From assembly GCA_019096195.1 (NCBI GenBank), contig JAGTXK010000064.1, forward strand, positions 186,001 through 250,000: a stretch of DNA of 64,000 nucleotides, in the 5' to 3' direction. Shown here piece by piece: positions 6,207 through 64,000 of this stretch. This stretch comes from Boletus sp. NGJ (lineage: Eukaryota; Basidiomycota; Agaricomycetes; Boletales; Boletaceae). How positions within the stretch are numbered: the first letter of the stretch is position 1; the number at the start of each line of letters is the position of its first letter. The translations under genes and the position numbers were made by a program. The notes under the pieces were generated by a model, which had not been told where the DNA came from, made no database searches, and worked only from the letters and a program-made list of their open reading frames with translations.

Positions 6207-8343
6207 ATGGCCCAACCTGCTGCTTTTCAAGCTCACGACCCTCGCGTGCACCTTCAAGAGAAAAACGACGACGTCGCCCCAGAGCACTTTGTCCTCGCAG
6301 ATGGTTTGGCACCCAACATTGAGACATATCTCCACTACGCCCGCGAACAACGAGACAAGGAGATTGCCGAAGTCCGCAGAGAAGGTCACCGTCCCCCGAC
6401 TGGCTGGCTGAGCGAGTTGTTCGGGCTCAATCGACTCGCTCGCGACCAAGATTCATTCGTTTCCGAGAAAAAGGCAGAGTCCGATGAGGCCGCCGTTCTC
6501 GCTGTCACTCCTGCCGAGTACCGTGCCGCTTCCGGCTCATTAAGGACGGCTTCTTGGGGTGCCGTCTTCTATCTCATCACTACTGGTACGACAGAGTTAC
6601 CCAAGTTGTTTGTACCCATCTGATTAGTAAGCCAGATATCCTTGGCCCCTACACGACGCCTTTCGCATTTGCGCAGGTGGGATATGGCCCCGGTGTTGCA
6701 TGTTTTGTCGTTTTTGGTGTTATGGCCGCCTACAGCGGTCTCCTCCTCTGGCACTTGTTCTTGAAACTTGACTCCGAGAGGTTCCCCCTGAGATCCTTCG
6801 GCGATCTTGGATATCGTATCTACGGGAGTTGGTTCCGGATCTGTATGTCTCTCGTAACCTTTTACAAGCACGTTATATTGACGACCTCGCAGTGTGCAAT
6901 GTTTTGCAAAGCTTGCAACTCATCGTTAACGTCGCTCTCATCATCCTCGGAAACGGTCAGGGTCTTTCGCAAATGGCACAGTTCAATGTATGTATTTTCA
7001 CCGCCACTATCCCCAAAGTTTACAGATTCCTTACGAGATCAGCTTTGCTTCAGTGTTTGTAACATCGTCTGGATGCTAGCTGGTCGGTCATGTCCGTATG
7101 GTTTGAACAAGAATGCTCACATTCTTCCGTAGGCATGATTCTGGGTCAGATCAGGACATTGCAAAAGTTTGGCTGGGTTGCAAACTTCTCCATTTGGCTC
7201 AACATTATTACCTTGGTCATAACGATGGGTGCTGTTGCACACACACCACCCAATTACGCGGCAGCACAAAGTGCTTATAATATTACTGCAGGGCCAGTGG
7301 AGACTGTGGCTATCAACCCACAGCCTTTCGAGCTGCAACTTAACGGAATCATGCAGATCGTATTCTCGTATGGTGGCGCGTAAGTCTACCTTCGCTAGGT
7401 CTTGAGTGTGGCCTCATCGAGAGCTTATCCTAGAATGATCTTCGTCGAATTCATGGCTGAGATGCGGCGACCAATGGACTTCTGGAAGGCGATGGCTTGC
7501 GCGCAGGTGTTCATCACCGTCGTGTACATGTTCTTCGGCTTGTTCGTCTACTCGTACCAAGGCCAATTTGTTCTCATCGTAAGCATGTTGCCTGCCACTT
7601 CCTAGACAAGTGGTTGACCTGTAATTTGCAATCAGCTTGCGAACCAGGGCATTTCTCTTTACAGTTTACAGACGGCGACCAACGCCATTTCTCTCGTAGC
7701 AGCTCTCATTGCCGCCGCGTTATATGGGAACATTGGCATCAAAGTTATCTACCAAAATATCCTGGTGGAATTATTCCGTGCCCCGCCCTTGACGGTGAAG
7801 GCCGGAAAGTACCTCTTCGCTGTTTTGGTGATCGTTTACTGGTCACTCGCATACGTCATCGGCTCTGCTATCCCCCAGTTCAGCAATCTCTCCGCCCTTG
7901 TTGCTGCCGTCTGCATCTTCCGTACGATTTTCGTTTGGGTGTCTGACCCGCGCTGACGCTCTTTTCGCAGAATTCACATACACCTTCCCACCTTTCATGA
8001 TTCTCGGCTACGTTATGCAGGTTGATGCGATGTCACACGACAGTCCATATGATGTCAACAATCCCCGTGCATCCAGAATTGATAGCTGGTGGAGCATTTA
8101 CCGATGGGTACGCGGCTGTACGTTCACCCATGATCCGATCCTTTTTTTTTATCTTCATTAATCGCCCCTTCTTTGCTTACAGACAAGAGGCACTTTCTCT
8201 TCAATACTTGGAACGTGGTCCTTAGCCTTGCGTGTCTGGCGACCGCAACACTGGCGGCGTACTCTTCCGTCACGTCGATCATTACAGATTTCCAGACGGG
8301 TACCTCTGGAACGACATTTGGCTGCATTTCCCCTCTCCAATAA
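6207..8343 (+). CDS. AAAP-family amino acid transporter, 568 aa
   Basis: An integral membrane permease of the amino acid/auxin permease (Aa_trans) family, probably a proton-coupled carrier of neutral amino acids in the plasma or vacuolar membrane. Nine exons join in phase (6207-6585, 6636-6842, 6893-6987, 7043-7082, 7133-7379, 7434-7578, 7636-7921, 7971-8117, 8183-8343). A soluble N-terminus of about 110 residues precedes roughly ten or eleven hydrophobic segments, including PGVACFVVFGVMAAYSGLLL, ANFSIWLNIITLVITMGAV and AQVFITVVYMFFGLFVYSYQ. Family-typical motifs are the first-helix region ILGPYTTPFAFAQVGYGPG and the central FSYGGA followed by MIFVEFMAEMRRP. Substrate cannot be told from sequence. 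Exons 3 to 7 are duplicated at 14.8-15.9 kb as a decayed copy; this one is the intact source. Confidence 0.88.
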
Positions 8344-8838: not shown

Positions 8839-10815
8839 TCAGATACTTCTCATCGTCTTGTGCAACGCCAGCGCTGCTTGCATATGATCCAGACGACTCG
8901 ACTCGCCAATCATATTGTCATAAAACTTGGACGTGATCTCGTTGGTGTGCGCATCGTCCACAGCCCACATCGTCCCAATGACCGAACGGAACCCGGCAAA
9001 CTGCATCGCGGCAGCAAGATGGATGACCTCGTCCGGACTTTCCTCGTCTCCAACGGTCGTATGGCAAGCAGACAAGTACGCGAACTTGGCGTCCGGTAAG
9101 TCGTATCGCATGATGTTTTCGATCGTCAATAGTCTGTCCAACGCAAACCCACTCAAATGGGGGATCCCATGACAGGCAAGGTGAACAAATTCATTCTTGC
9201 TCAATTCTTCACCAACTTTGGCGATGGTGGCGTCCTGGTCCTGAACACAAGTGAGCGTAGCGACCGACCCGACACGTTGTGATACAGTGGATAGCTCAGT
9301 ATTCACTGAATCGAGTTTGTTCTGTCCTGGAGCCTGTGCCCGGCCGATATTCAAAAAACGATGTCGTTCTATGGATGGATTCGATGGCCTCTCCTGTCGA
9401 GCACGAATGAGGGCTGTCAATGTCGGTATATGGAGATCTGAGAGCATCGGTTGGCCCCTCCTAAAGGAGCCGGCAGCATGCAGTGGAAGAAGAGAGAACT
9501 CGGCGGTCGGGCACCACCAAATACGCGATCTGTGGGAATAGAACTTCTGCAGAATGTTCATGATTGGAAAAACGATAACATCCCAGAGTTCTCGTAGAAA
9601 CGCCATAATACCCCTCTTCACATCACTGAATTTGGAAAGGTGGATCAGAGAACGAAGTTGCAAGGAGAGTTCAGAGACGTCGGCTTTCGTGATGGAGAGA
9701 GGAATGTGGATGGGATCTTGGTGGGATAGAAGTAGCAGTGCATCGCAACTGTATTGGCTTGCATTCACGATGATGACTGGTCCAGCAGTCGCTGCCGCCT
9801 GGAGATCTGAGAAGCATCGGGGGTGGAGGAAATGGGAGAGGCCAGGCAACTGGCGAATATCAGCGAGGACATCCTGCAAATGGATGCCCAGACGCCACGC
9901 CCGATCTTGCTGAGAGTTACTGTCGGGAGGGGCATCAGACACACCACGAAGGAGGGATGTCACCTGGGTGAACTTCTGTGCCAATTCCTTCCTTGTGCTG
10001 CTACATCATCAAGAGGAGAGCGAAGGCAGATTAGCTGACTCCAGAAGACACTGCGCCCTTGTTCAAGGAGCTCGATTGCATTGGTGGGATTGCCATAGCG
10101 AAGACACGCAGAAAATGCATCAATTGCTAGAGATGTTATGAGCTCTTTGAGTAGTGCAAGATTCTGAGGCAGTGATGGGAGAATGGCGAAATGGCGACCA
10201 CTGAGGCGCAAAAATGTTTGGTAGGCCAAAACTGTGGTACTGTGTTTGCACTCTTCGGCTTTCTGGATCCATTCTTGCACGAATTGGAAATCAGCGAGAA
10301 ACACTGTTTGAGAGACCTTGGAGAGTTAGCAATATACATTGATTGTTTCCTGGAGGTCACTGATGTCATGCACGGGTGAGTGTTTGAATCGAGCATGGAG
10401 GCAGAAAGCAAGGTTGCCCAAGGACGCAGCTCGACAAGGATGATCCTGCGGGTAAAGCTCCAATACGCTGCATCGGAGGGCAATTGCCTCCTCGAGGTCA
10501 GGCAGCCTTCCGAGCCGGCTGAAACGGCTCCAGAGGATATTCGCGAGGCTGCCCAGATTGGGCTTGATCAGGATGCCCTTGCGGACGAAGTTCCAATGCA
10601 CTATGCCCAAGGGAGATCGCCTCGTCGATGTCAGCTCTATCTCCTCTTTGGTTGAACTGGTGACGGAGTAAACGAGCAAGTTCATGTAGTGATTTAACTC
10701 GATTGGGATGCCCTTTGGGATGGAGTTGTAGTTCATTGCGGCAGAGGTTAATTTGCTCGTCAAGTTCAGACATTGGTGTAGAATAAATGGCGTGGATCAA
10801 TCGTATCCTGTTCAA
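8839..10815 (-). pseudogene. TPR-CHAT (caspase-like) protein gene, probably decayed
   Basis: The CHAT domain is a caspase-HetF-associated Cys-His protease fold, which in fungi often sits behind TPR repeats. The reverse strand encodes TPR-like repeats first (ALELRPQGHPDQAQ, CSVLELYPQDHPCRAASLGN), then a linker with AIELLEQGRSVFWSQLICLR. A CHAT domain occupies most of 8839-9984. Its putative catalytic pair is kept: His in FVHLACHG and Cys in FAYLSACHTTVGDEE. The C-terminal half is one clean 381-residue frame, but the TPR part and the join to the CHAT part lie in different frames with no plausible introns at two places. I therefore call it decayed or mis-sequenced, not a sure gene. Pieces of it recur at 12.19-13.18 kb and 63.43-64.0 kb. 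Function in this organism is unknown; fungal CHAT proteins have been linked to regulated cell death. Confidence 0.7.
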
Positions 10816-12191: not shown

Positions 12192-13180
12192 ATCCACAGC
12201 CCACATTGTCCCAATGACCGAACGGAACCCAGCAAACTGCATCGCGGCAGCAAGATGGATGACCTCGTCCGGACTCTCCTCGTCTCCAACAGTCGTATGG
12301 CAAGCAGACAGATAATAAACTTGGCGTCCGGTTAGTCGTATCGCATGATGTTTTCGATCGTCAATAGTCTGTCCAACGCAAACCCGGACTCAAATGGATT
12401 CTTCTCATGGGGGATCCCATGACAGGCAAGGTGAACAAATTCGTTCTTGCTCAATTCTTCACCAACTTTAGCGATGGTGGCGCCCTGGTCCCGAACACAA
12501 GTGAGCGTAGCGACCGACCCGACACGCTGTGATACAGTGGATAGCTCAGTATTCACCGAATCGAGTTTGTTCTGTCCTGGAGCCTGTGTCCGGCCGATAA
12601 TCAAGAACCGATGTCGTTCTATGGATGGATCCGATGGCCTCTCCTGTCGAGCACGAATGAGGGCTGTCAATGTCGGTGTATAGGAGGAAATATAGAGATC
12701 TGAGAGCATTGGTTGGCCCCTCCTAAAGGAGCCGGCAGCATGCAGTGGAAGAAGAGAGAACTCGGCGGTCGGGCACCACCAAATACGCGATCTGTGGGAA
12801 TAGAACTTCTGCAGAATGTTCATGATTGGAAAAACGATAACATCCCAGAGTTCTCGTAGAAACGCCATAATATCCCTCTTCACATCACTGGATTTGGAAA
12901 GGCGGATAAGAGAACGAAGCTGCAAGAAGAGTTCAGAGACGTCGGCTTTCGTGATGGAGAGAGGAATGTGGATGGGATCTTGATGGGATAGAAGTAGCAG
13001 TGCATCCCAGCTGTATCGACTTGCATTCGCGATGATGACTGGTCCTGGAGATCTGAGAAGCATGGTACTGTGTTCGCACTCTTCGGCGTTCTCGACCCAT
13101 TCTTTGGTGCATTCGAGATCAGCGAGAAACACTGAGGCCAATATACATTGCATGTTTCCTGGAGGTCGCTGTTGCACCGC
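12192..13180 (-). pseudogene. Second CHAT gene copy, partial
   Basis: This is a near-copy of the 8.8-10.8 kb CHAT gene. It keeps a 293-residue open frame with NEFVHLACHGIPHEKNPFES, IERHRFLIIGRTQAPGQNKL and WWCPTAEFSLLPLHAAGSFR. The segment of the other copy at about 9.8-10.24 kb is missing here, so the CHAT part joins straight onto the linker containing FLADLECTKEWVENAEECEH. The catalytic-Cys segment (LSACHT in copy 1) is also absent: after IENIMRYD the frame changes and the text resumes as MQFAGFRSVIGTMWAVD before fusing to the TatD remnant. It cannot be an active CHAT protease. It keeps the insert SSYTPTL, which the other copy lacks, so neither copy is simply derived from the present form of the other. 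Confidence 0.75.
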
Positions 13181-13227
13181 GGTCGTGTTCGAACTCCGCC
13201 CACGCTTCGACAACTACAACGTTCGCC

Positions 13228-14812: not shown

Positions 14813-15868
14813 GTGGACCTCGCAGTGTGCCAAAGTTTTGCAAGGTTTACAACTTATCATTAACGTCAGTCTCATCATCCTATCGAACGGCCAAGGTCTC
14901 TCGCAAATGACAAAGTTCGATGTATGTATTTTCACCGTCATTATCCCCAAAGTTTACAGGTTCCTTACGAGATCAGCTTTACTTCAGCGTTTGTCACATC
15001 GTCCGGATGCTAGCTGGTCGGTCATGTCCGTATGGTTCGAACAAGAATGCTCACGGTCTTCCGTAGGCATGATTCTGGGTCAGATCAGAACACTGTAAAA
15101 GTTTGGTTGGATTGCAAATTTTTCCATTTGGCCCAACATTATTACCTTGGTGATAACGATGGGTGCTGTTGTACACACACCACCCAACTACATGGCAGCG
15201 GCAGCGGCTGTTTATAATATTACTGCAGGGCCAGTGGAGACTGTGGTTATCAATCCACAGCCTTTCGAGCTGCAACTTAACGGAATCATGCAGATCGTAT
15301 TCTCGTATGGTGGCGCGTAAGTCTACCTTCGCTAGGTCTTGAGTGTGGCCTCATCGAGAGCTTATCCTAGAATGATCTTCGTCGAATTCATGGCTGAGAT
15401 GCGGCGACCGATGGACTTCTGGAAGGCGATGGCTTGCGCGCAGGTGTTCATCACCGTCGTGTACATGTTCTTCGGCTTGTTCGTCTACTCGTACCAAGGC
15501 CAATTTGTTCTCATCGTAAGCGTGTTGCCTGCCACTCCCTAGACAAGTGGTTGACCTGTAATTTGAAATCAGCTTGCGAACCAGGGCATTTCTCTTTACA
15601 GTTTGACAGACGGCGACCAACGCCATTTCTCTCGTAGCAAGCGTCTCATTGCCGCCGCGTTATATGGGAACATTGGCATCAAAGTTATCTACCAAAATAT
15701 CCTGGTGGAATTATTCCGTGCTCCCGCCCTTGACGGTGAAGGCCGGAAAGTACCTCTTCGCTGTTTTGGTGATCGTTTACTGGTCACTCGCATACGTCAT
15801 CGGTTCCGCTATCCCCCAGTTCAGCAACCGTCTGCATCCTCCGTACGATGTTCCTTTGGGTGTGTGAA
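14813..15868 (+). pseudogene. Partial copy of the AAAP transporter
   Basis: This segment matches exons 3 to 7 of the transporter at 6893-7930, introns included, in the same orientation. The exon around AQVFITVVYMFFGLFVYSYQ is unchanged at protein level. The first two exons and the last two (start, first helix, C-terminus) are missing. The first matching exon is out of frame after a single-base change near its start, an in-frame stop appears at 15098-15100 where the intact gene reads a Leu codon, and a deletion near 15830 removes part of the LSALVAAV helix. It therefore cannot make a carrier. Intron sequences remain very similar to the parent, which points to a fairly recent DNA-level duplication and not a processed copy. 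Confidence 0.88.
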
Positions 15869-17421: not shown

Positions 17422-20400
17422 TTATAGGCCACGCGCTTCGAGACGGCTGCGGAAGATCTTTTGGAAACCAGGAACGTGGTCAAAGTCCATGAGCGTGTAG
17501 TGCTGTCCGGGAACATCGGTGTACGCGGGCTCGCCACGGCTGTAACCTGACCAAGGCTTGAGCTGGTTGTTCAACCAGTCCTCCTTGGTACCACGGAGCG
17601 GGTTGGCATAGAAGACATCGACGGACGCTGAAATCAAAGCATGTCAGTACGGATGGGCAAATGAGCAAAGACGATCGACTCACAAACTGAGCTACTTGGG
17701 ATCGTATGTCTTACCACACTCGATCAACGAGCCGGCGATGTCAACCCAGTGGTCGAGCTTCTCGGGCGTGAGCTGGAGTTCGAGGAGACGCTCGGGAGGA
17801 GACAACTTCCAGACGACGTCGAGCTGCTCCTTGCGCGTGAGGGGCCTCAATGCCGGTGCGAGGTCGTTGGCGTCTTGCTTGCTCACGAGACTGAGGAAGT
17901 ATGAAAGGTTGAGCATACCGCCCGTCCAGTCGATCTCGTGCATCCGGTCTGCAATGTTGGGAGGAATGTTGATGAGACCGGTGAACTTGACTTCATCGCC
18001 CATGGCTTCGAGTCGCTTGGCAACTTCGAATGCAACGACACCACCGTACGAGTAACCGGCGATGGCATAGGGACCGTGAGGCTGCGTCCGCTTGACAGCT
18101 GCAGCGTAAGAGGAAACCATCTCGTCCATAGATGTAAAGAATGGATGCCCGGGTTCGAAACCCCGCGCACGGAATGCGTAGAAAGGCCGCTCGTTCTGGA
18201 AGTATTTGGCGAGGTTGACGAAGATGAGAACTTCACCGACACCGGGGTGAACCATGAAGATGGGGGTCTTGTTACCGGTGAGGTTGAGGGGGACGATGGG
18301 ATCATACTCCTCGGTGCTCGCATCCTTGGAAACCAAGGAGTTTACATATTTCGCCAAGCTGGAAAGGACGGGGTGCTTCAGGATCTGGATGGTGGGTATC
18401 TCGGGCAACTCAAACGCAGTCTCTCCCTCGCGCTTGAGCCTGATAACGTCAATGGAGGTACCGCCAAGTTCGAAGAAGTTGTCGCTGGCAGACATGTCGC
18501 TTACGTTGAGGTTGAAGATGCCGGCGTAGATGCAAGCCAAGATCTTCTCGGTCTCAGTGGATGGGGCAACGAAGCTGGCACCGCGTGCGATGCTCAACAA
18601 CTCCTCGGCGCGGGCGATGTGCTTGGCAAGTCCACCCTGCTTGAATTGGTTGACGAGACGAGCCCTGGAAAGCTTTCCAAGGGTGGTCTTCTCCATTTGA
18701 TCAGCGGGGACGGGGATGATGAGTTGCGGGGGAAGAGTGATCATCTTCACAGAGACATCGCGGAGAGCACGGTGGGTAGCGAAGAGCTTGGCGGGAGCAT
18801 CCTCGCCGTTGAGATCGAATGTCGGCGAGTAGAAAACGACGAAACCCTCAGTCTCTTGGCCGGGCGCACGGTAGGGTGCAGCAGCGAGGAATGAGTGAGT
18901 GACACCCTCGACCGTCTGGAGGTGTGTCTCCAGTTCTGGGATACCGTACGAGACACCATGTACAATGACAGTGTCCTTGATACGGCCGCTCAATCTCATC
19001 TTGCCGTTTTCGATGATACCGACATCACCAGTGCGGTACCAACCGCCCTCGACAAAGCTGGAAGACGTTGCTTCGGGGTTGCTGTAGTACCGCACAAAGA
19101 TCATTGGACCGCGGACTTGGAGTTCCCCGCTCTGGCCATCAGGGCGGGGAGTAACACCGTCTTCGGGATTCACGATCCGCACCTCGCACCCGGGAACGGG
19201 CGTGCCAAGCTCCAAGAACTCATATGCGGGAGGTGTGGCCAACACATCAATGGGGTCGTAGATGCATCCAGCGCTGAAACAGTTCCATTTAGGATTGCAA
19301 TCATCATGATGCACAACCGTAACTTACCAGGTTTCGGTCATACCGAATCCAGCAGAGATGACGAACGAGGCATCGCCATTCTTCGCGAGGTTCTTCAGGG
19401 TTCTGTTGAAGGCAACAGCGGTGTTGCTGACAACTGCTTCACCACCACTGTTGATGCGCCTAAGGGAAGTAAGGTCGAATTTCCCGAAGAGGTCGGTGCG
19501 TTTCTCGAGGTCGCGTGTGATTTTAGCGAGCAAGAAGTTGGGTGCGAATGCGACCTCGATTGACTGCGTGAGGTTAAACAACAATCAGACGCATGAAACT
19601 CGGAGCACTATTAATCACAAACCTTTTCCTCGATCAAGCGAAGGTATCGCAAGGGGTCAGAGAGAATGGCAGACGCGTGAACGTGCAGCTGCGAAGCACC
19701 GTATACGAGTGGTGTGAAATGCATTTCGAGGGATCCAGCGACGTGGTCAAATCCGACCCCTGGTTCCACGTTAGCACACCATCTGATAGGCAATCATAAA
19801 ACTCACAGTTCATGATCTTGGACTCTGAAGTGAGGCCGTAGCTCCGGCCCTTGGCATAGCACGCAGCGATGATAGTGCGGTGGGTGTGTACGACAGCCTT
19901 GGAGAAACCAGTCGACCCGGAAGTCAAGAAAAGGATGGCTTCATCGTCAGGTTTTGGGACGTGGACAGCAAAGTCTGTGCCCAATGTCTCAGCTGAAGCT
20001 TTCAGCTCGGAGAGCAAGTGGATGTCGAGGCCAGAGATGGACTGCACTTGGTCAGCGCCACTCTCGTTCGTCAACCAGGTTGCCGAAGAGAAAAGGTTTT
20101 TGATGTGAGCGACGTGACCCTCCTTGTGGGCCTGCTGAGCACTCAAGGCGGGCTGCAAGCAAGGCACGCAGCCAGCGAGGATACAGGCCCAAACAGCCGC
20201 CATGTTGTCCTCGTGCTCAGTGAGGTAAACGACGATTACTGATCCAGCGGGCTTGCCCCAGGCACGGATAGCCTTTGCGAGGGAAAGGGCATATTGACTG
20301 AATTCGTAGAAAGTCTTTGTTTGAATGGAAGAGTCGTGGGCCGAGGAGGAGACGAAGCCCAGTTGATGGTGAGGGTATTGGTGGACAGCGCGAGAGAGCA

Positions 20401-35511: not shown

Positions 35512-36626
35512 CTACCACTCAAGAGACTCTTGGGCCTCTCTCTTCCAGTCGAAGATTCCCCCGCGATCCTTGAATGCCTGCTCATCAAAGCCCGAGTCCT
35601 GCAGCGCGTTCTGTACGCCCACTTCCAACAATGATCTTCCAGGTTTCTTTCCCCCGTCCTGGCAGTTCAAAAATCTAATCCACCGGTCAGCTCTCCGATG
35701 ACTATTCATCGTGGAAATATCCCACCTCATCCGTTCGTCCAAGTTCAAGTAAGAGTCTTTCATGGACTCATTGTCCTCTGGGACCAGGCACTTTTGAGGG
35801 GCATGGCGGGCGAGAAAGGCCTGAAACTGTCCCTTCGTGATGATAAGATTCCGGGCATCACGAAGCGAGCCTGTCTCTGCGCCCGTATTTTCCGAGTCTA
35901 ATAAAAGCACTTGGAAAACCTGACCAATCAGATAAATCAATGCCTCGTCTAGACCATCATGTGGACACCATAGGGTGGCGTGGCGTACCTTCCAGCGGAA
36001 CGGTGCAAGTTGCTCTATTTGGTCATTCATATCTTCTTCCCAGTTATTGCTGAGGGGAAGATATTTAGCGGCGGTATGGTCGACTGCAACGGACATACAC
36101 ACATGGTGACAACGGTGTTGATCTTGACTCTGATCCCCCTATCTTTAGCCCACTGAGCAACTTTGAATACATTGTCGATGTGGGTCGTAGAAGTCCCGTT
36201 TTCCGCACGACCCTGCTTGACGTTGGTCTCTACGTCAAAAGAATCACAAGATATGGCCATGACGTCGAGATATTGGCCGTATATGTCCAACCATTTCTCG
36301 GTCACCTTCGAGCCGTTGTTCACAACGGAACACGACTCGATGTGGAGCTCCTCTTTACAGAACTTGAAGACCTCCCCGATATAGCGGGGCTGCAGAAACG
36401 GTTCACCACCACTGATGTTCAGTTTCTTCATCCCCGCATCGACAAGCATACGAAGTCCACGCTTGGCATCCTCGAGAGGGAGAATAAATTCATTCGTGTT
36501 GGTGTGGAAGCAAAAATGGCACTCGTAGTTGCAACGCCTGTTTGGAAACCAGTTCGCGGAAACTGGTACCTTTGCAGGGGCGGTGCTGAAGAAAGGAATC
36601 GACAGGTCGAGCCAGGTAAATTTCAT
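35512..36626 (-). CDS. Viperin-like radical SAM enzyme, paralogue 1, 313 aa
   Basis: Viperin (RSAD2) converts CTP, or another NTP in some lineages, to a 3'-deoxy-3',4'-didehydro nucleotide that terminates viral RNA chains. Exons 36103-36626, 35989-36049, 35726-35919 and 35512-35674 join in phase. The radical-SAM cluster motif is RRCNYECHFCFHT (CxxxCxxC). It is followed by the GGEP motif in KKLNISGGEPFLQPRYIGE, the NGS motif in SCSVVNNGSKVTEKW, and VMAISCDSFDVETNV, INTVVTINNWEEDM and LVPEDNESMKDSYL. The C-terminus ends in Trp (ESLEW), the residue known in human viperin to recruit CIAO1 for Fe-S loading. There is no long membrane-binding N-terminal helix as in vertebrates; the first residues are MKFTWLDLSIPFF. 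NTP specificity is not readable. Confidence 0.92.
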
Positions 36627-39600
36627 GTTGACGAGGATGATCTCAGCCTTGATTGACGTAGTAGGAAAGGGGTGGGGGAAAAGGAGACATACCAAGTTAG
36701 ACCTTTTATGTTTGAATTGTGGGGCAAATGAATCGCGGCGCAGTTCCATGGCAGATATATCGGGGAACTTTGTTGATCGGTCGCGGATAGTGCTTGTCAG
36801 AGTCATCCTTCCAACAATAAGGTTATGTCGTTGTACAAGTAGAGTCCTACTTCGTTTGACATCGTGGATGGAGTGCCCCAGAGAACAGTCATGCTGAGTA
36901 GGGCTTCATGATGAAGCCATGGATTCGCATTGTTACTACAGGATGGTGCACAGTGAAAGGTCCTTGGCCATGTAATCTTTACCACACCGGAACTGTCCCG
37001 AGGCCATTAATTGTAGGTACCAGTGTGCGTATATTATATAATGATGGGATTCCAGCTTGTCCTTGACGCTTACGAACCTTGTAGAACAACCTGCGACTAG
37101 GTCGGAATCATCTGTGATTGGGATAAGAGTCTTATTGAGAGCGAGGGTAAGGAACGAGGTGGAAATGTTCTAGGCAAGGGAAATGATACGAGGGCGTGTT
37201 CGTCAGGTGTCAAGGAACGACACTGGCACGAGCAAGTCCACTCCTGTGCACTAAGCAGAAAGGGACCCCTTCGCGGGGTAGATCTGGTTTAATTGCACTT
37301 CAAATCCACCGAACTCGTGGGGCTTGAATGAAATAATGCATCATCTAGATACTGGTGCAGCGCAAGGGACAGTTGTCCTAAATCAGACGTTGATGATAAG
37401 AGCTATCCCTCCAGATCGGACGCCATGTCACATACATACCTCGTGTTAGGTGGTTTCTTTGCGCCGAATTAATAAGGACGGAACATCCCCGGGCACGAGT
37501 TAGGTCCTAGAAATGATAGGCGCTATTCTGATAGGTTGTCCATAATGCCTTTAACTATTGCGTGTTGTTGCAACCCCATTTTCAAGTGCGGTTCCTGGTA
37601 AACTACGCCTCGAGTTTAGTCGCCACAGAGAATAAACTCACCACAGGATGTGCTAAACTAGTCAATTGCTGTATTGATGGGCCCCACATTGTACAGCGAT
37701 TGGCGTGCCGTCTGAACCAATGGCTCTTTCATGTTGATACGCGTCCTGTCTGGTGACGAGCGGTGAGTGTCCAATCCAAAAATGAGCGCCTTCAGGAGCC
37801 AGGTACCAACACTTGGCTGGGCAGCCAGTCTGAGTTGCAGTCGATTGTGTCGCGAAAAGACACATTTGCGCGCTAATACAGCAGCGAGGAAAGCCCGAAG
37901 AAAGGTGAGGGTTCTTTAGTATCACTACACCATTGACGAAGTAACGGAGAATCTTTTGAGCTCAGCTGCGAGCTCACGTAACAACGGCAATAAAGAATGA
38001 TGCTTCTGAGGCCACCAGGCAAAGAGTCAATCTTGTCGCAGGGTGTCATGTTCGGCATGGAAGCCGTATCGAGGATCCGATATACTCCGCTCCAAATACT
38101 CTATCTGTCGTCACCAGAGAGTGCGCTGCCGAAGAGAGCCGGGGCAGAGCGTTAATACTCAATCCCGGTGCAAGCTGAATCTACCACTGTCAGCATCCCA
38201 TGTCATTCTAAACCAATATCTCAGAAAGCCTCTAAAGGACCCATAGGACATGCCTGAGGCGAACCAGCACATGCCGCACGCCAAATTGCTTCGAATCTGA
38301 CTATGAATGTCTGCGGAATTCTCCTCGGGCCGCTTATGTCATCAGTTTCGCAGCCTCTGTCACAGTTCCCCTTTATCCATCGAGACAACGATGTGTAGAA
38401 TGCCGGCCAGTGAGAGGAATTAGGCGAGAACGTGCTGAGAACCACAACCCCGACTACACAGGACCATTGAAAACCCCTCGGAATTGAAGCTAACACTGTG
38501 CAGCAGCTGTGGCGCCGGAATCAGCCTGCTCAAAGCACTCATGGACAGCAGGCATCTGGATACATCAGTTAAGGTCGTGATTGTCCTTACTGCAGGCAAA
38601 CACGATCCTATCCAATGTATTGAACTGCCCAGCTGGTCTTTTTGGCGCGCACTCAACATATTCCTCGGACTATCTGGCATGACGTCTACGTCAATAATCA
38701 CGCGCACGTTTGGCACACACCAACGTAGACAAAGCTGCAACGCTGTGGTGAGTTGATTTTGCCGAGTCAAAGCGGATTATGGATCACTTGGCCAAAGCGG
38801 CGTGGCTTCTTTCAGCTCTGAACAATGGACGTATGTGGACGATGCGCCACAGTATTTGGTGTGGACCAGGTGTGGACGTCTAGACTGTCAGCCACATTTA
38901 TGGGTATTTAAGCTTGACCAACGCTGACTCCCTTCATCCAGTTTCTTGCCCTCTTCCTTTCCTCTCTTACTTGCCCGCCGCTCATGGCGAGCACTTTCTC
39001 TCGTCGTCCCTGCTATCCCTCTCATTCACTCTTATTATCTGGATGCCACACCTCGATATCGATGCTCCACCTCCAAGCGAGTCCGCACGCGAGCTGCCCG
39101 AATGGACCAATCGTCGCGACGACGTCGGGCTCTGTTAACTCCGAGTCGCCACTCCCGCCATTTGCGACCATGCCCGCGCAGTCGATTTTCGTTATTCACT
39201 CCGCCGATACCACGCTCATCCTCTATGGAAGACGGCACGCGAGATGCTCGAATCGAGAATAGACCGATTGTCGCGACCACAACGAACTCTGATCGATTGT
39301 GTCCTCGTCACTCCCGCCGTTTGCGACGATTCCTCGATTCTTCGACCCGATGCCCGATGCCGACGTGTTCATCGCCGGTCCCAGTTGGACAAGATACCAC
39401 GAACCAGAGTAGCCGCGAGACGCTACCTCTCGATGGCCGACATGTGTGATTATCATTATTACCCATTTCGGTGACCACGACACCGACGACAAGTATTGTA
39501 CGACTTCAAACACGCGACATACGATGTGCTCGACGCCCGCCTTCATCGGCAACTGTGCTACAAGACGACACTGAGCATCAAGATTACTTCAAGTGTGCGA

Positions 39601-40337
39601 CATACGATGCACTCGATGCCCGGCATTCATCGCAAACTAGGCCCCAAGACGACACTGAGCATCAAGATTGACAAACTCGCTTGTTCACTAATTTTACAGG
39701 GAATCCGACAAGCAAAATTCGATACTGTCCTCTCGGGTCGCGAGCTGCGCCACACCATGTGTGTCACGATCCATCTGATCGTGACACGCTGACCTCGGAT
39801 GAGATGGACGATGGTACGTTTTGCGTGGACTCTACTTTAGACGCGGTGCTAACGCCGCGACACAGAGAAGTTCCCGTCGCAAGTGGCTCCGAGCGAGAGG
39901 CTCAGTCTAATAAATGAAGTCAGACAGAGGGCGACGGGCGGGTTGGGAGAGTCGACTCGAACCCGATGCAAGCAAGAAAGGTGGGTTCTTCTGTTCTTTC
40001 CTGTTGATATTCGTTGACCGTCTGTCGTAGACAATCGGAATGCGACGTAGAAGAAGGGGGTTGAACTTCACTGAGGATCTAGCATTGGGAATAAGGTGCG
40101 TCCAGCAGTAGGGCATGTCTTTGATTCCAAAGGCGTCACTTGCTGTTGGACCCACCTTGTTTTCGACTGGCCTCTTTGAGTTGGCTGCTGCCTAGCGCGT
40201 CTTCACTTTATTGCAACCACATGAGACTACGTGATTTGCAGAGGCAAATTGCGTGACGTTACAAGAATCTACCAACAACACTAATTTCTTCTACCCGGTT
40301 TGATGAAACGTCAGCGCTTCAGCTTTCAAATTTTCAA
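36627..40337. other. Gene-poor stretch between the two viperin genes, about 3.7 kb
   Basis: I see no conserved exon on either strand. It holds the upstream region of viperin 1 on its left and small tandem repeats near 39.1-39.7 kb. A frame at 38946-39449 is Ser/Arg-rich and overlaps those repeats, so I read it as repeat-derived and not as a gene. Confidence 0.5.
39503..39669. repeat. Two-copy tandem repeat, unit about 83 bp
   Basis: Copies start at 39503 and 39586. Each begins acttcaa, contains gcgacatacgatg, and ends with acgacactgagcatcaagat; the ends are nearly identical and the middle is diverged. A looser two-fold similarity precedes it: about 39095-39230 and 39231-39320 share GCACGCGAG, cactcccgcc and tttgcgac blocks. 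Confidence 0.75.
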
Positions 40338-41464
40338 TCACCAGTCCAGAGGCTGGGATTCAGGCTCCCTTGTCCAGTCAAATATTCCACCGCGACTCAG
40401 GAAAGTCTTTTCATCGAACCCTGAGTCAAGAAGTGCTGTCTGAACACCGACTTCCATGATCGATCTGCCCGGTTTCTTGCCGCCGGCGCGACAATCCAAG
40501 AAACTGAAACACCGCGATCGCCATCTTAGCATTTAATGAATCCCAAAAAAATGCACACGCGTACCGCATCTCTTCGTCGATGAGCAAGTAGGAATCCTTC
40601 ATCGCATCATTGTCTTCCGGGACGAGAGACGTCTGCCCCGCGTGTCTATCAAGGAAGGCTTTGTATTGTTCCTTTGTGACCGTCAGGCTACGCGCGTCAC
40701 GAAGAGAATTGGAATCTGGCCCCGTGTTCTCCGAGTCCAGGAGCAAGACTTGGAACACCTGTTTGTGGGTTTAGCCGAGCTGGATAGACATCACGTCAAT
40801 GTGACAGCACGGCGAACCTTCCAGCGAAAAGGGGCAATCTCCTCGATCTGGTTATTCATATTCTCCTCCCAGTTATTGCTAACCAAGTTTCATCAGCGTC
40901 GAGCGCAGGTCGGAAGGGCAATGGAAATACTTGCATCGTTACGACCGTGTTGATCTTCAGTTTGATACCTCTCTCTTTCACCCACTGCGAAACCTTGAAC
41001 ACCGTGTTAACGTGGGTGGCAGCAGTGCCGTTTTCCGCTCTTCCCTGTTTGAGGTTCGTCTCTGGGTCGAACGAATCGCACGATATGGCCATAACGTCGA
41101 GATATTTGCCATACGTGTCCAACCAGTTCTCGGTCACTTTCGACCCGTTGTTCACGACGGAACACGACTCGAGGTAAAGCTCCTCTTTGCAGTACTTGAA
41201 CACTTCACCAATGTAACGGGGCTGAAGGAACGGCTCTCCACCGCTGATGTTGAGTTTCTTCATCCCAGCATTGGCGAGGAGACGAAGCGCGTATTTCGCG
41301 TCGTCGAGAGGGAGGATATAGTCGTTGGTGGAGGTATGAAAGCAAAAATCGCATTTGTAGTTGCAGACGCGATGGGGAAACCAGTTCACAGAAACTGGCA
41401 CGAATCCAGGCTTTGGAGTGGGTCTCACAAAGCGTGTCGATCGCACGTTAGCTTCCATCCACAT
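40338..41464 (-). CDS. Viperin-like radical SAM enzyme, paralogue 2, 316 aa
   Basis: Same family and exon plan as the gene at 35.5-36.6 kb: exons 40935-41464, 40818-40878, 40565-40758 and 40338-40503, with intron positions and phases identical to paralogue 1. Motifs are HRVCNYKCDFCFHT (CxxxCxxC), KKLNISGGEPFLQPRYIGE, SCSVVNNGSKVTENW, LLLDSENTGPDSNSLRDA and LVPEDNDAMKDSYL, with a final Trp in QPLDW. The first intron uses a GC donor (gcaagt) where paralogue 1 has GT. The N-terminus (MWMEANVRSTRFVRPTPKPG) differs fully from that of paralogue 1, so the two may differ in location or partner. It appears intact throughout. Which NTP it uses cannot be told. Confidence 0.92.
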
Positions 41465-56795: not shown

Positions 56796-57861
56796 AAGGG
56801 TGTCACTTTGCCTATGAAATGTACCAGGCTCTTACTTTGATCTTACCCCCCGATATCCTACTTGCCATCGTCTTTTTTTTACTGTAGCATGAATGGTATC
56901 TCTTATGTCTCCAGAACTCATGACTCTCTCTCGAACTTACGCCTGTATTAGTTTTTGACTGACGTCTCGTGGTCGCTCGTTTATGTGTTGACTATGTAGT
57001 GTGGTTGAATGATATCTTATCATCCTCAACGTACATCACGAGCTGCCGTGTGGCGATGATGTTTGCGCTCGGTACGCTTGTGTGGAAAAATTCCTGCAGC
57101 AAGACTGATCCGACAAGTTCTTCGGTCATGCCGACGGACCACGGTGCCGCCAAGTAGCACTCAAGTTTGTACGCTCGATACTCAAAAGGGCACTCCATCG
57201 CTGCAACATGTGGCATCGCAACAGTGTTTTGACACTCGGAACGTGAAATGGATTGGGGGTTTCGCATGCCGAAAGATATCCAGCAGGACAAACTATAGCG
57301 AGGCATGGAGTCGGATCCGCTTGTGGTCGCGGTACCGACGGACTCGATGATCATTCAAGTTGACATGCCATCAGTCGGCAAAACAAAGCATACCATCTTG
57401 CCAAGATTATTGTGGAATGACTTTATGGGAAAACAATCCCGGGGCCAAGTCGAGCGCACGTCGGACCAACGGGAGACAATCAAAACTATTCAGGGTCCAG
57501 TAACGTATGATGCTGAGGAGTGTACTGGTCCTCGTGGGATGTTGTTGCGAGGGGGACCACGCCCCTGATTGGATTGTGCTGCTCGTTCCCAATGCTCGAC
57601 AAAGACGTCAAGAAGATCTTACATTATGTACATAGGTTGAATCTATGCGAAACGGTAACAAGAACATACTATGGCGAGCGAGCCGGCGCACAGCAAACAT
57701 CCGAACCGTCCCCGATGTATCCATCCATCACACTATGACAGATGGCGAACAGGGATGATATAAATATCGGATATTGTGGTGATGGAAGGAGGGGGCGAGA
57801 GGCGAACGGAATCTCGACGATACATCGATGAACCGTCACGTCGATCGATTTTTTTCTTGTT
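56796..57861. other. No gene recognised; left edge of a tandem duplication
   Basis: Holds the 3' flank of the kinase. From about 57636 it also holds the left part of a duplicated block (see repeat entries) that continues through the GPI-protein gene. An open frame at 57305-57568 has no family resemblance. Confidence 0.45.
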
Positions 57862-58597
57862 TCAGAGGGACATGAATGCGCCAACGAGGGTAGCGACGAT
57901 GCACACGGCCATGCTGCCACTGGTTTGGAGGCCGATACCACCGCCGGTGGGGACAAGTGGGTTGGCGCCGCTGCCACCGCTCGAAGAGGTACCGGTCGTG
58001 GTAGCCGGGGCGGCGCTACCTGTCGTTCCGCCAGTGGTGCCGCCCGTGGTCCCACCAGTCGTGCCACCAGAGCTAGAACCACCGCTGAGCTAAACATCGC
58101 GAGGGAAAATCATGAGCACCTTGAAATGACATGGAACAAAAAAAAAAAAAAAAGGTGCGACTCCTACCGTCAAGGCGCCATTGCAAGCCTCGTTCCAGCC
58201 ACTGATACTTGTCTGAGCCTCGCTCTGGACGGCGGGATCGGCGCTGACGATACAGCTCATGCATTGCTGCAACTGGCTCCCGATCGTGCTGGCGCATATG
58301 CAGTTGAGATCATCGTTGCAATTCTGGAGCAAAAGGTACAGGATGTTGCGGTTACGAAGAGGGCCAAAAAAATCGACTTACGGTCATGGTATTCACCACT
58401 TGACAAGGGGACTGGCATGCAGAGGGAAGAGAGCTGGGGTCAAATGATTGACGAACGACAAGCCCATTCGAAGTGGAACCCAGAGGTGTAACTGGGACCA
58501 CTGGATGTCAAGATGCAATCTAAAGCATGGATGAAATGAATCACATACACCGAGAAAGGACAGGAATAGCGTAAAGGAGTGGGTTAATTTGGACCAT
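57862..58597 (-). CDS. GPI-anchored eight-cysteine cell-surface protein, copy A
   Basis: A small secreted protein anchored in wall or membrane. ATG 58597 opens a signal-peptide-like start (MVQINPLLYAIPVLSR), interrupted by a 48 bp intron. The next part has SLPSACQSPCQVV. After a second intron comes NCNDDLNCICASTIGSQLQQ with CMSC and NEACNG. That makes eight Cys in a C-x3-C, C-x5-C-x-C, C-x2-C, C pattern, loosely like CFEM domains but not a clean match. A third intron leads to a Gly/Ser/Thr-rich stalk with repeated GGTT units, then GANPLVPTGGG and a hydrophobic tail ending GAFMSL before TGA at 57862-57864. The tail fits a GPI-attachment signal. Function unknown; a surface, adhesion or effector-like role is only a guess. 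Confidence 0.78.
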
Positions 58598-58667
58598 GGT
58601 GGAATACTACGAGGTAGATCAAAAGCGAAGGAAATTTTGAAAGAAAGAAAGGATGAGCAACGGATCC

Positions 58668-58675
58668 CTTAAATA
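58668..58675 (-). promoter_or_regulatory. TATA-like element of GPI protein A
   Basis: The reverse strand reads TATTTAAG about 75 bp upstream of the ATG at 58597. The paralogue has a TATA-like box at the matching place, which strengthens the call. Confidence 0.45.
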
Positions 58676-58679
58676 CAAG

Positions 58680-59926
58680 TCCGTCAGGGCGATTTGTCAC
58701 GGAATAGAATTGAAACCTCACCTCGGTTAGGTCCCGCAATGTTACCGACCCTGAACGCAAGTGGTGACCACACCTTGCAATTTTGGTCAGCAAATGACCG
58801 TGCAGAGTCAAGAGTCAGGACCCAGAGAGATACCACGACATCAATCAAATTCATTGTGATGAAGTAGCTAAGAGTAATTCGGACGTGATAAACAACTGGG
58901 TCAGATTGATTCAAATCTGATAGTGAGATCGATGCTTGAACACCTTACCTTTGTGACCTTTGTTATTCAGCTCGCTCGAGTCAGTGTCCGCTCGGCAGGT
59001 AAGCCTGAATACATACTCATAACCCACGTTCCACGTTTCATGAGAAAATTTGGGCGTTGCGAATACAAGTGTTCCACCTTGGCGGAGCAAGATATCGAAG
59101 TGGTGACGTAACACTTGAGATCTGGCAGTGCTTACACTGCCTACTGGTGTGGCTTGGCAGATACGTTCCATAGTTTGTTCCCAACACTGCTCGGCTACCG
59201 TATTCTTGAGCCTCATCCGGCTTGGAAGGACTCCCCGCAATGGTCAGTATGTCACGAGTGTCTCTCCGTTTTGACCCGAAAAACCTATGAAGTGTGCCTG
59301 TGCCAGTGGCGTCCGGTATGTTGAGGGTCAATTAGTTCCCTTGCTGAGATATGACCCTGGCAAGCTGCCCGGGCGCGCGCACAACGGTGTCGCGATCGTC
59401 CTTGACGAGTTCAAGCTCCTATAGCATTCACACTGCCGCAGTGATCCTAGTTTTAGGTAGATCACGACATGATGCCACGATGTCGTTGATCGCGTCCGCG
59501 TCGTCTACGAAGTGTGCGTCTCTAGCGCCCTAGCGAGTGCCGAGTGCGGCCTGCGAAAAGGAGGAGCAGGCGAGGCGCTCGATGCGAGGGAGCCAGCTCA
59601 CTGGCAAGGACGAGATGGCAGACGCCTAGCACTGTCAGCCAAAGCCGGTGACGAACCGACTCTGAGTGACAAGCCAACTAGTACTACACGGTGACGGTCG
59701 AGCAAAGCTTGTATTACGTACTTTTAGGTTGAATCCATGCGAAATGGTAACAAGGACATGCTATGTCGAGCGAGCTGGCGCACAGCAAACGTCCGAATCG
59801 TCCCTATATAGTATCCACCCCTCACACCATGACACAGTTGCGAACGGGGATCATATAAATGAGGGTGGGGATTAACTGGATCTCGAAGATACACCGTCGC
59901 GTCGATTATTTAAAAAAAATCTTGTT
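58680..59926. other. Gene-free part of the duplicated block
   Basis: Upstream DNA of GPI copy A and downstream DNA of copy B. No coding exon recognised. Most of it has a counterpart in the other copy at 60.8-61.4 kb, where it is shortened by deletions. Confidence 0.5.
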
Positions 59927-60727
59927 TCAGAGGGATATGAACGCGCCAACGAGGGCAGCGACCATGCATACCACCATGCTGCCACTAGTTTTGAGGCCGA
60001 CACCACCGCTGGCAGCAAGTGGGTTGGCGCCGCTACCACCGCTCGAAGAGGTACCGGTCGCGGTAGCTGGGGTGGTGCCACTTGTCGTTCCACCAGTCGT
60101 GCCGCTGGTGGTATCAACTGTCATTACACCAGTCGTGCCGCCGGTGGTACCAACCGCCGTTCCGGTTGTCCAACCAGTCGTGTCACCAGAGCTAGAACCA
60201 CCGCTGAGCTAAGTATCGTGAGCGCAAATTGTAAGCGCCTTGGAATGACATGGAACAAAAACGAAAAAAAGCGAAAAAAGGCAAAAACTACCTACAGTCA
60301 AGCTACCATTGCAGATTTCGTTCCAGCTGCTGATATCTCCCTGTGCCTCGTTCTGGTAGATGGGATCAGCGTTGGCGAGACAGCTCAAGCATTGCTGTAA
60401 CTCGTTCCCGAGGGTGCTGGTGCACATGCAGCTGAGATCATCGTTACAACTCTGGAGCAAAAGGTACAGGATGTTCAAGTCACGAGGAGGGCCAATGAAT
60501 CGACTTACGGACCCTGCAGAACCCACTACTTGGCAAGGGAATTGGCATGCAGAGGGAAGAGAGCTGGGGTCAAAGGATTGACGAACGACGAGCCCACTCG
60601 AGGCGGAATCTAGAGGGGTAACTGAGACCACTGGATGTCAAGATACAATCTAAGGCACGGATGAAATGAATCACATACACCGAGAAAGGACAGGAATAGC
60701 GTAAAGGAGCGGGTTAATCTGGACCAT
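59927..60727 (-). CDS. GPI-anchored eight-cysteine cell-surface protein, copy B
   Basis: Paralogue of the gene at 57862-58597 with the same plan. ATG 60727 gives MVQINPLLYAIPVLSR, then SLPSACQFPCQVV, then NCNDDLSCMCTSTLGNELQQ with CLSC and NEICNG. All eight Cys are kept while about one residue in five around them has changed. The stalk is longer and more Thr-rich (units of TTG, VGTTGG and TTSGTT), ending with GANPLAASGG and a hydrophobic tail that stops at 59927-59929. Conservation of Cys and signals with variation in the stalk fits a functional surface protein under diversification and not a dead copy. Neighbours are copy A and the mitochondrial carrier. Confidence 0.78.
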
Positions 60728-60801
60728 AGTGGAATACTGCGAGGTGGATCAGAAGCGAAGGAAAATTTTTGAACGAAAGAAAAGGATGAGCAACGCCTCC
60801 C

Positions 60802-60809
60802 TTATAAAT
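60802..60809 (-). promoter_or_regulatory. TATA-like element of GPI protein B
   Basis: The reverse strand reads ATTTATAA about 75 bp upstream of the ATG at 60727, matching the position of the element in copy A. Confidence 0.45.
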
Positions 60810-61445
60810 CTACACGTCCGTCGGTGGGTAATTGAAGCCTCACCTCGATTAGGACACAGATATTACACGGTGACCCTGAACGCAAGTGAGCGCGCCCGGT
60901 GATCACACCCTGCAATTTTGGTGACCGCGCAGAGTCAAGAGTCGAGATACCACGACTTCCATCTAATTCGTTATGATGAAGTAGGTGAGAGCAATTCGAA
61001 CGTGACAAACAACTGGGTCAGACTGATTCAAATTTGATGGTGAGTTTCCTCATCAATGCGTGAACACCTTACCTTTGACCGTTGTTATTCAGCTCGCCCT
61101 AGTCAGACTCACAACCCACTTTCCACGTTCATGAGAAATTTTGGGCGTTGCGAATACCAGTGTTCCACCTTGGCGGAGCAACATCTGCCAAAGATATCGA
61201 AGTTGTGACGTAACACTGATTTGAGATCCAGAGCTTACTGTGTGGCTCAGATATTATAGTAGGTTGCATAGCTGGTTCCCAACGTTACTCGGCCACCGTA
61301 TGCTTAAGCATGGCTTGGAAAGACCACCGTGGCATCCGGTGTGCTGAAGTTCCCTCGCTGAGTCGTGCTTCAGGTACCAGATATGACCTTGGCAAGCGCG
61401 CGCACAACGGCGTCGCGATCGTCCTCGACGAGTTCAAGTTCCTAG

Positions 61446-63253: not shown

Positions 63254-63429
63254 TCGTATTGGAGTCCGTGATGAGCGTCAACGTCGACGCTCATACATCT
63301 GGATAATATCCGTGCTCAAGATATCTCATCTGGATTCAATTGGTTGATACCAGACATGTTCTTGCTACTGACACCGATAAATTTTGTATGCAGTATCTTG
63401 AGTGACACGTGTTGCGATGCTCTTTCGTG

Positions 63430-64000
63430 GATGGCCTCGCTCGGACCCTCCTCGTCTCCGACAGTCATATGAAAGGCAGACAGATATGCATACTGGGCGT
63501 ATCGCATGGTGTCTCCGACCTTTGACAATCTGACCGTACTCAAGCTATCGCTTCCGATCAGGAATCCCGTGTCAACCTGCAAGGTGAACGAGATCGTTCT
63601 AGTTCGATTCATCAACAACGCTGGCAATGATCGCGTCATGGTCTGAAACGCAAATAACTGTCGCGACGGCCTCCGACTCGGATACACTGGACGGTTCAAT
63701 GTCCACCAAAACGAGGTTGTTCTGCGCCTGCCCCCGAACCCCCCCCCAAAAAATATATATATCGCTCCATGGACGGATCGGATTACCTTTTCTGTCGGGC
63801 CGTCAAGGTCAGTGTATAGGAAGAAACATAAATATCGGAGAGAATCGGTTGGCCCTTTGTATACAAGCCGGCGGTGTTCCATGAAGAAGGGAGAACTCGG
63901 GGGTTGGGCACCACCGGATGTGCCCGATGATCGACGGGAACAAGACTCTTTGAAGGGCGTTCATGGTTGGGACCGTGTTTCCGAGTGGTCGCGTAGAAGC
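63430..64000 (-). pseudogene. Third CHAT-domain fragment, decayed, cut by window edge
   Basis: Reverse-strand text again resembles the CHAT gene family: GQPILSDIYVSSYTLTLTA matches GQPMLSDLYISSYTPTLTA of copy 2, and YAYLSAFHMTVGDEEGP matches FAYLSACHTTVGDEESP of copy 1. The catalytic Cys is Phe here (LSAF against LSAC), the His segment is not found, and matching pieces are in different frames. It is much more diverged from the other two copies than they are from each other, so it is an independent older relic of the same family. It may continue to the right of the window. Confidence 0.65.

Follow-up and report, generated by a model that had tools for sequence, protein, structure and literature searches.

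Viperin is an ancient antiviral protein common to animals, fungi, and prokaryotes, and in animals it makes a false building block of RNA. The window analyzed here, a 64,000-nucleotide stretch (bases 186001-250000 of its contig) from the Boletus sp. NGJ assembly (32.8 Mb, 141 contigs), contains two genes for viperin (also called SAND, a radical-SAM nucleotide dehydratase), which are referred to as A and B throughout. The two genes lie head to tail, both on the minus strand, and they look like the products of an old tandem duplication in this fungal lineage, both copies of which were kept by selection.

Gene structure of A and B

Gene A consists of four exons (36626-36103, 36049-35989, 35919-35726, and 35674-35512) encoding 313 amino acids (aa) that end in SLEW, and gene B consists of four exons (41464-40935, 40878-40818, 40758-40565, and 40503-40338) encoding 316 aa that end in PLDW. 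The boundaries in the original prediction were exact, position 35512 being the last base of the stop codon of A and position 41464 the first base of the ATG of B. The motifs it listed were also present in both proteins: CxxxCxxC (CNYECHFC in A and CNYKCDFC in B), SGGEP, NNGS, and the C-terminal Trp. Each gene has three introns, located at homologous codons and in identical phases (2, 0, and 2). The introns of A are all of the GT-AG type and are 53, 69, and 51 nt long (36050..36102, 35920..35988, and 35675..35725, respectively). Introns 2 and 3 of B are also of the GT-AG type (40759..40817, 59 nt, and 40504..40564, 61 nt), and its intron 1 (40879..40934, 56 nt) is a GC-AG intron with the donor GCAAGT (40929-40934) and the end TAG.

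Neither gene model contains a stop or a frameshift. The claim that both genes read through all exons holds for A as it stands and for B only with the GC-AG intron 1. An alternative GT donor, four bases beyond the GC donor, leads to a stop at codon 180, which means that B has an open frame only if intron 1 is spliced as GC-AG. The N-termini had been described as unrelated; this applies to the simplest gene models alone, because the start codon of A is uncertain. The frame stays open for 93 codons 5′ of the assumed ATG of A (36627..36905, minus strand), with two further in-frame ATGs, so that an N-terminal extension or a 5′ untranslated region is possible. A candidate 5′ intron of A (donor GTATGT near 36692) required a frame that, by eye, has no ATG after the last stop in that stretch, and it was dropped, though not disproved. 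An amphipathic helix was not significant in the simple N-termini when compared with shuffled sequences (best 11-residue moment, p = 0.82 for A and 0.09 for B), nor in A with an upstream start (p = 1.0), the true start of A being uncertain.

Homology and duplication history

Both proteins matched the Pfam family Radical_SAM (PF04055; 69.5 bits for A and 64.7 bits for B), and the best-scoring family was the NCBIfam viperin model TIGR04278 (E 3.1e-115 and 384.9 bits for A; E 9.8e-110 and 366.8 bits for B). A second NCBIfam viperin model, NF038283, scored 239.4 bits for A and 242.8 bits for B, both over its cut-off of 180, and stayed below the cut-off in 14 of 14 control genomes. When A was compared with solved chains, the matches in order of score were 6q2p, 5vsl, 7n7h, 9dfw, 9dgw, 6b4c, 7n7i, 9dfn, and 9dfu. 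The E values of the top two were 1.3e-99 for 6q2p, which we take to be mouse viperin, and 1.6e-99 for 5vsl. The identity of A was 51% with mouse viperin, 49% with each of 7n7h and 9dgw, and 45% with 9dfu. A table in the consulted part of PMC8124187 gives 5vsl as mouse viperin and 6b4c as Trichoderma virens. The E values for TIGR04278 and mouse viperin exclude a chance resemblance; by homology, A and B are viperins, and their grouping with viperins is unambiguous. The two proteins also have a common C-terminal tail (RGGIFDW...SLEW in A and RGGIFDW...PLDW in B), and deletion of W361 is reported, in the consulted part of PMC6480927, to abolish the anti-hepatitis C virus activity of human viperin. 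A search of the whole assembly with A found no third viperin copy, all eight matching pieces being exons of A or B; other radical-SAM matches were located on three contigs.

The phylogeny suggested as a check was run on 28 rows, comprising A, B, four other eukaryotic chains, and 22 prokaryotic viperins (25 loci, less three repeats). When two prokaryotic genome sets were searched with NF038283, 2 of the 395 genomes in one set and 13 of the 227 in the other had matches that passed the cut-off; 6 of 17 plasmid records were fetched. Six partial loci, 36 radical-SAM loci below the NF038283 cut-off, and one genome's second match over the cut-off, which had no locus, were left out. The six eukaryotic rows grouped together with a support of 100/100, apart from the 22 prokaryotic ones. 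A and B were sisters (support 100/99). The other eukaryotic rows also formed pairs, mouse viperin with 7n7h and 9dgw with 9dfu, the branching order among the three pairs being without resolution.

The two proteins are identical at 225 of 310 aligned residues (73%). The branches leading to A and B (0.12 + 0.19) are about as long as those separating mouse viperin and 7n7h (0.13 + 0.20), which argues that the duplication is not recent. Over 294 codons (residues from 20 on), dN was 0.148 and dS 2.46, giving a dN/dS (omega) of ∼0.06, with synonymous sites near saturation (dS 2.39 to 2.46). Of 200 bootstrap replicates, 149 gave an omega value, ranging from 0.033 to 0.111, and the other 51 failed or were saturated; exons 2 to 4 alone yielded no dS. 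As judged from these codon comparisons, both copies are under purifying selection. Tajima counts against four outgroups (11:15, 13:12, 11:15, and 13:12) showed no faster copy. Long repeats common to both units (two families) lie inside the genes, and between the flanks of A and B the only matches were of 25 nt or less and out of the 4.83-kb register. The claim that the genes arose by duplication is borne out by the shared intron positions and phases and by the sisterhood of A and B.

Conserved residues, substrate, and alternative readings

Gene structure, homology, constraint, and sisterhood are shown by the data above; what we propose for the activity, the substrate, the antiviral role, and the reason for retention is inferred, in part from known enzymology. 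The reading that we favor, at a probability of roughly 0.6, is an old tandem viperin pair, both members of which were kept to carry out the same reaction under different regulation, in different amounts, or in different places. An ancestral viperin gene would have been duplicated in tandem long ago, and both copies would have been kept under purifying selection. Each copy is probably a soluble radical-SAM nucleotide dehydratase in which CxxxCxxC would hold the cluster, the C-terminal Trp would help to load it, and the cluster would cleave S-adenosylmethionine (SAM). The resulting 5′-deoxyadenosyl radical would then take H4′ from a pyrimidine nucleoside triphosphate (NTP), and loss of water would give a 3′-deoxy-3′,4′-didehydro-NTP (ddh-NTP). 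Such a product could stop RNA synthesis, for instance, by a mycoviral polymerase. Both copies most likely make a ddh-nucleotide, perhaps the ddh form of cytidine triphosphate (ddhCTP), which is the product of animal viperin, and the differences between them would most likely be of regulation, dose, timing, or location.

The conserved columns are largely in line with a common reaction. The six eukaryotic proteins agree at 89 of 323 columns. In the wider alignment, nine residues of A are identical in 28 of 28 rows (the three Cys, Asn25, Glu75, Arg140, Lys195, Tyr252, and Arg297), and Arg193 is identical in 27 of 28; all of these presumably have catalytic roles. The tyrosine of DSYL (mouse position 302), presumably the catalytic one, is the same in 28 of 28 rows. 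Further, of 41 columns conserved in at least 90% of the 26 other viperins, 37 are unchanged in both copies. The four departures are His79 to Phe in both, Gly to Asn in both (at a less securely aligned column that adjoins an insertion in a loop), Phe to Tyr in B, and Ile to Leu in A. This leaves two columns at which A and B differ from one another, both conservatively. Of the 122 columns that are invariant in the four other eukaryotic viperins, A or B departs at 33. Both copies have the same change at 18 of these and different changes at 6, whereas 4 are changed in A alone and 5 in B alone. With 18 of 33 changes shared, more than half of the change most simply predates the duplication.

The loop that follows the DSYL tyrosine bears on the substrate. 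It reads NCQDGGKKPGR in A, DCRAGGKKPGR in B, and NCTGGRKDPSK in mouse viperin, and it is two residues shorter in 9dgw and 9dfu. Since A and B have the mouse loop length and cysteine rather than the shorter 9dgw/9dfu loop, CTP would be the first guess for both. Chain 9dfw, over its aligned part, is like 9dgw but matches mouse viperin in this loop and in the IVTGEN stretch, which may be read as a specificity swap; no paper on 9dfw was found. Read in this way, the swapped loop would weakly support CTP as the substrate of A and B.

Several observations weigh against a shared, conventional viperin reaction with an antiviral purpose. Neither A nor B reaches the TIGR04278 cut-off of 450, and the frame of B, as modeled, depends on its GC-AG intron. 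Both copies have NWFP where the four other eukaryotic rows have NYHF. The Trp that replaces Tyr in this motif is common in the prokaryotic rows (10 of 22). By contrast, the residue lost, His79 in mouse numbering, is kept by 25 of the 26 other viperins (21 of the 22 prokaryotic rows among them) and is Phe in A and B. This position comes two residues after Asn77, itself invariant in 28 of 28 rows, and just before the CxxxC loop. Both copies also have Pro for Phe80 and Ile for Phe123. Given the loss of His79, the NWFP motif, and Phe123Ile, activity is not to be taken for granted. At the site of mouse Tyr308, which is invariant in the four other eukaryotes, A has Arg258 and B has Glu260. The CTP preference is not secure either, because the fungal enzyme from Thielavia terrestris (TtRSAD2, a SAND) is described as promiscuous (CTP, uridine triphosphate [UTP], and 5-Br-UTP) in the consulted part of PMC9642334. 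Finally, the antiviral role in fungi is putative, and among titles and abstract starts in the open-license literature, no paper on fungal viperin and mycoviruses was found.

The leading idea of the original prediction was that A and B dehydrate different NTPs. The Tyr308 site is the one sharp difference between the copies near a loop that possibly chooses the base, with Arg in one and Glu in the other differing in charge; A and B also differ by Asn versus Asp in the L(N/D)C loop, and the products of the prokaryotic viperins, taken together, include ddhCTP, ddhGTP, and ddhUTP according to the consulted part of PMC10732462. However, the two copies differ at just the 2 conservative columns among the 41 noted above, more than half of the 33 changes are common to both, and the loop Asp is found also in 7n7h, which groups with mouse viperin. 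The Tyr308 site itself varies among the prokaryotic rows, which suggests that a tyrosine is not required for the reaction as such. The changes in A and B follow no pattern that would point toward different nucleobases, and a division of substrates has little sequence support and seems doubtful. It is also unlikely that His79Phe, Phe80Pro, and Phe123Ile shifted the pair to another radical-SAM reaction before the duplication. His79, near the invariant Asn77 and the CxxxC loop, may point into the barrel, and its replacement in both copies at a position so widely conserved speaks for such a shift; against it, the DSYL tyrosine and 37 of 41 strongly conserved columns are kept in both copies, and these group with viperins unambiguously. 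A combination of the two ideas, in which a rebuilding before the duplication (NWFP, loss of His79, and Phe123Ile) altered the substrate or product and the Arg/Glu difference at the Tyr308 site then split the copies further, might have left the pair making two distinct chain terminators or a novel one, and we regard this, too, as unlikely.

That one copy, most probably B, recently became a pseudogene or yields no working protein is very unlikely. The GC donor on which the frame of B rests is preceded by the exon bases AT, where AG is usual. On the other hand, 316 codons without a stop or frameshift at a dS of about 2.4, an omega far below 0.5, and four Tajima counts without a rate difference all weaken this explanation. 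The pair is a sound but modest finding, to which is added one oddity common to both copies, NWFP with the loss of His79, that the original prediction had missed.

Related systems and neighborhood

Mammalian viperin (RSAD2; 5vsl and 6q2p) resembles the two proteins in its catalytic core, which has 51% identity with A, and in its radical-SAM cluster motif, GGEP, NGS, the long cysteine-containing loop, the RGG tail, and the terminal Trp. It differs in the N-terminal amphipathic helix of the animal form, which is associated with the endoplasmic reticulum and lipid droplets and no counterpart of which turned up in the simple N-terminus of either copy, and in having NYHF and Tyr308 where A and B have NWFP and Arg (A) or Glu (B). 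The viperin-like chains 6b4c, 7n7i, and 9dgw, which are the same over the aligned stretch, likewise have the cluster motif and RGG tail (A is 49% identical to 9dgw), but their loop is two residues shorter (LDRNGQQPSKS); they resemble A no more closely than mouse viperin does and did not join A and B in the tree. TtRSAD2, likened here by description only, is a fungal radical-SAM nucleotide dehydratase, and the consulted part of PMC9642334 mentions no second copy. Prokaryotic viperins, for example, those of the Heimdallarchaeota phylum, a Thermoplasmatales archaeon, a Micrarchaeon, and plasmids, have near-invariant columns in common with A and B, both of which score above the cut-off of NF038283, but they are separate from the eukaryotic rows with a support of 100/100. 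In 2 of 6 plasmid loci, both cyanobacterial, viperin has a nucleotide kinase immediately upstream, and in the other four it does not. No such kinase was seen beside A or B among the part of the window's open reading frames (ORFs) that was scanned. No relative was found on viral contigs in two scans, and 16 phage records had weak radical-SAM matches, each of which spanned less than 80% of the query.

Two viperin copies in one eukaryote are not unprecedented. The survey in PMC10732462, in the part consulted, counts 194 viperin-like proteins in 158 eukaryotic species, which means that some species have more than one, and it groups previously known fungal viperins with animal ones. In gibel carp, two viperin homeologues were kept with divergent expression and mechanism (PMC8438203, in the part consulted); these copies, however, arose in a vertebrate by polyploidy and not as a tandem pair. 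Two copies were also seen in a prokaryote, one genome of the Heimdallarchaeota-phylum set having matches over the NF038283 cut-off on two contigs. In the open-license literature, no paper on viperin in basidiomycetes and no test of the role of viperin in fungi was found, and a word search of PMC11185175 and PMC12114427 found none of the words sought, including fungal ones. A constrained tandem pair would be a natural test of that role. If both copies respond to mycovirus infection, fungal viperin would be an immune gene, and if their expression follows that of ordinary metabolic genes, this may not be so. The common His79 change, in turn, would be a cheap probe of which residues are truly needed for the reaction.

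The spacer between A and B (36920..40200) contains two ORFs of more than 120 aa, with no Pfam family at E 0.01. Apart from a 47- to 48-nt piece at two other places, no second copy of the spacer was found in the assembly, simple repeats being skipped. Exons of a nuclear pore protein 84/107 gene lie upstream of B on the opposite strand. Downstream of A, on the minus strand, is a NUDIX ORF (PF00293; 34008-34562), and an 84-residue piece upstream of this ORF matched ATG13 (E 0.01), DUF4743 (E 0.038), and DUF4829 (E 0.17), without reaching the cut-off in any case. A functional link between the NUDIX ORF and the viperins, such as clean-up of ddh-nucleotides, was given no weight, as none of these matches identifies the kind of NUDIX protein.

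Local duplication is common in this window, as other duplicated stretches, 92 to 93% or 74% identical, occur in it. Two ORFs with CHAT domains (PF12770) are located at 8839-10005 and 12332-13213 on the minus strand; at the DNA level they show 92.6% identity across 854 columns (8957-9783 versus 12193-13045), and a third stretch at 63428-63915 is 66 to 67% alike. The CHAT pair is flanked by a duplicated sequence of ∼1.06 kb with 92% identity (6883-7946 and 14816-15867), and another, of ∼1.6 kb with 74% identity, lies at 57607-59231 and 59697-61324. A nonribosomal peptide synthetase-like ORF (17692-19323, minus strand) contains a thioesterase domain, a phosphopantetheine domain, and an AMP-binding match that narrowly misses the cut-off.

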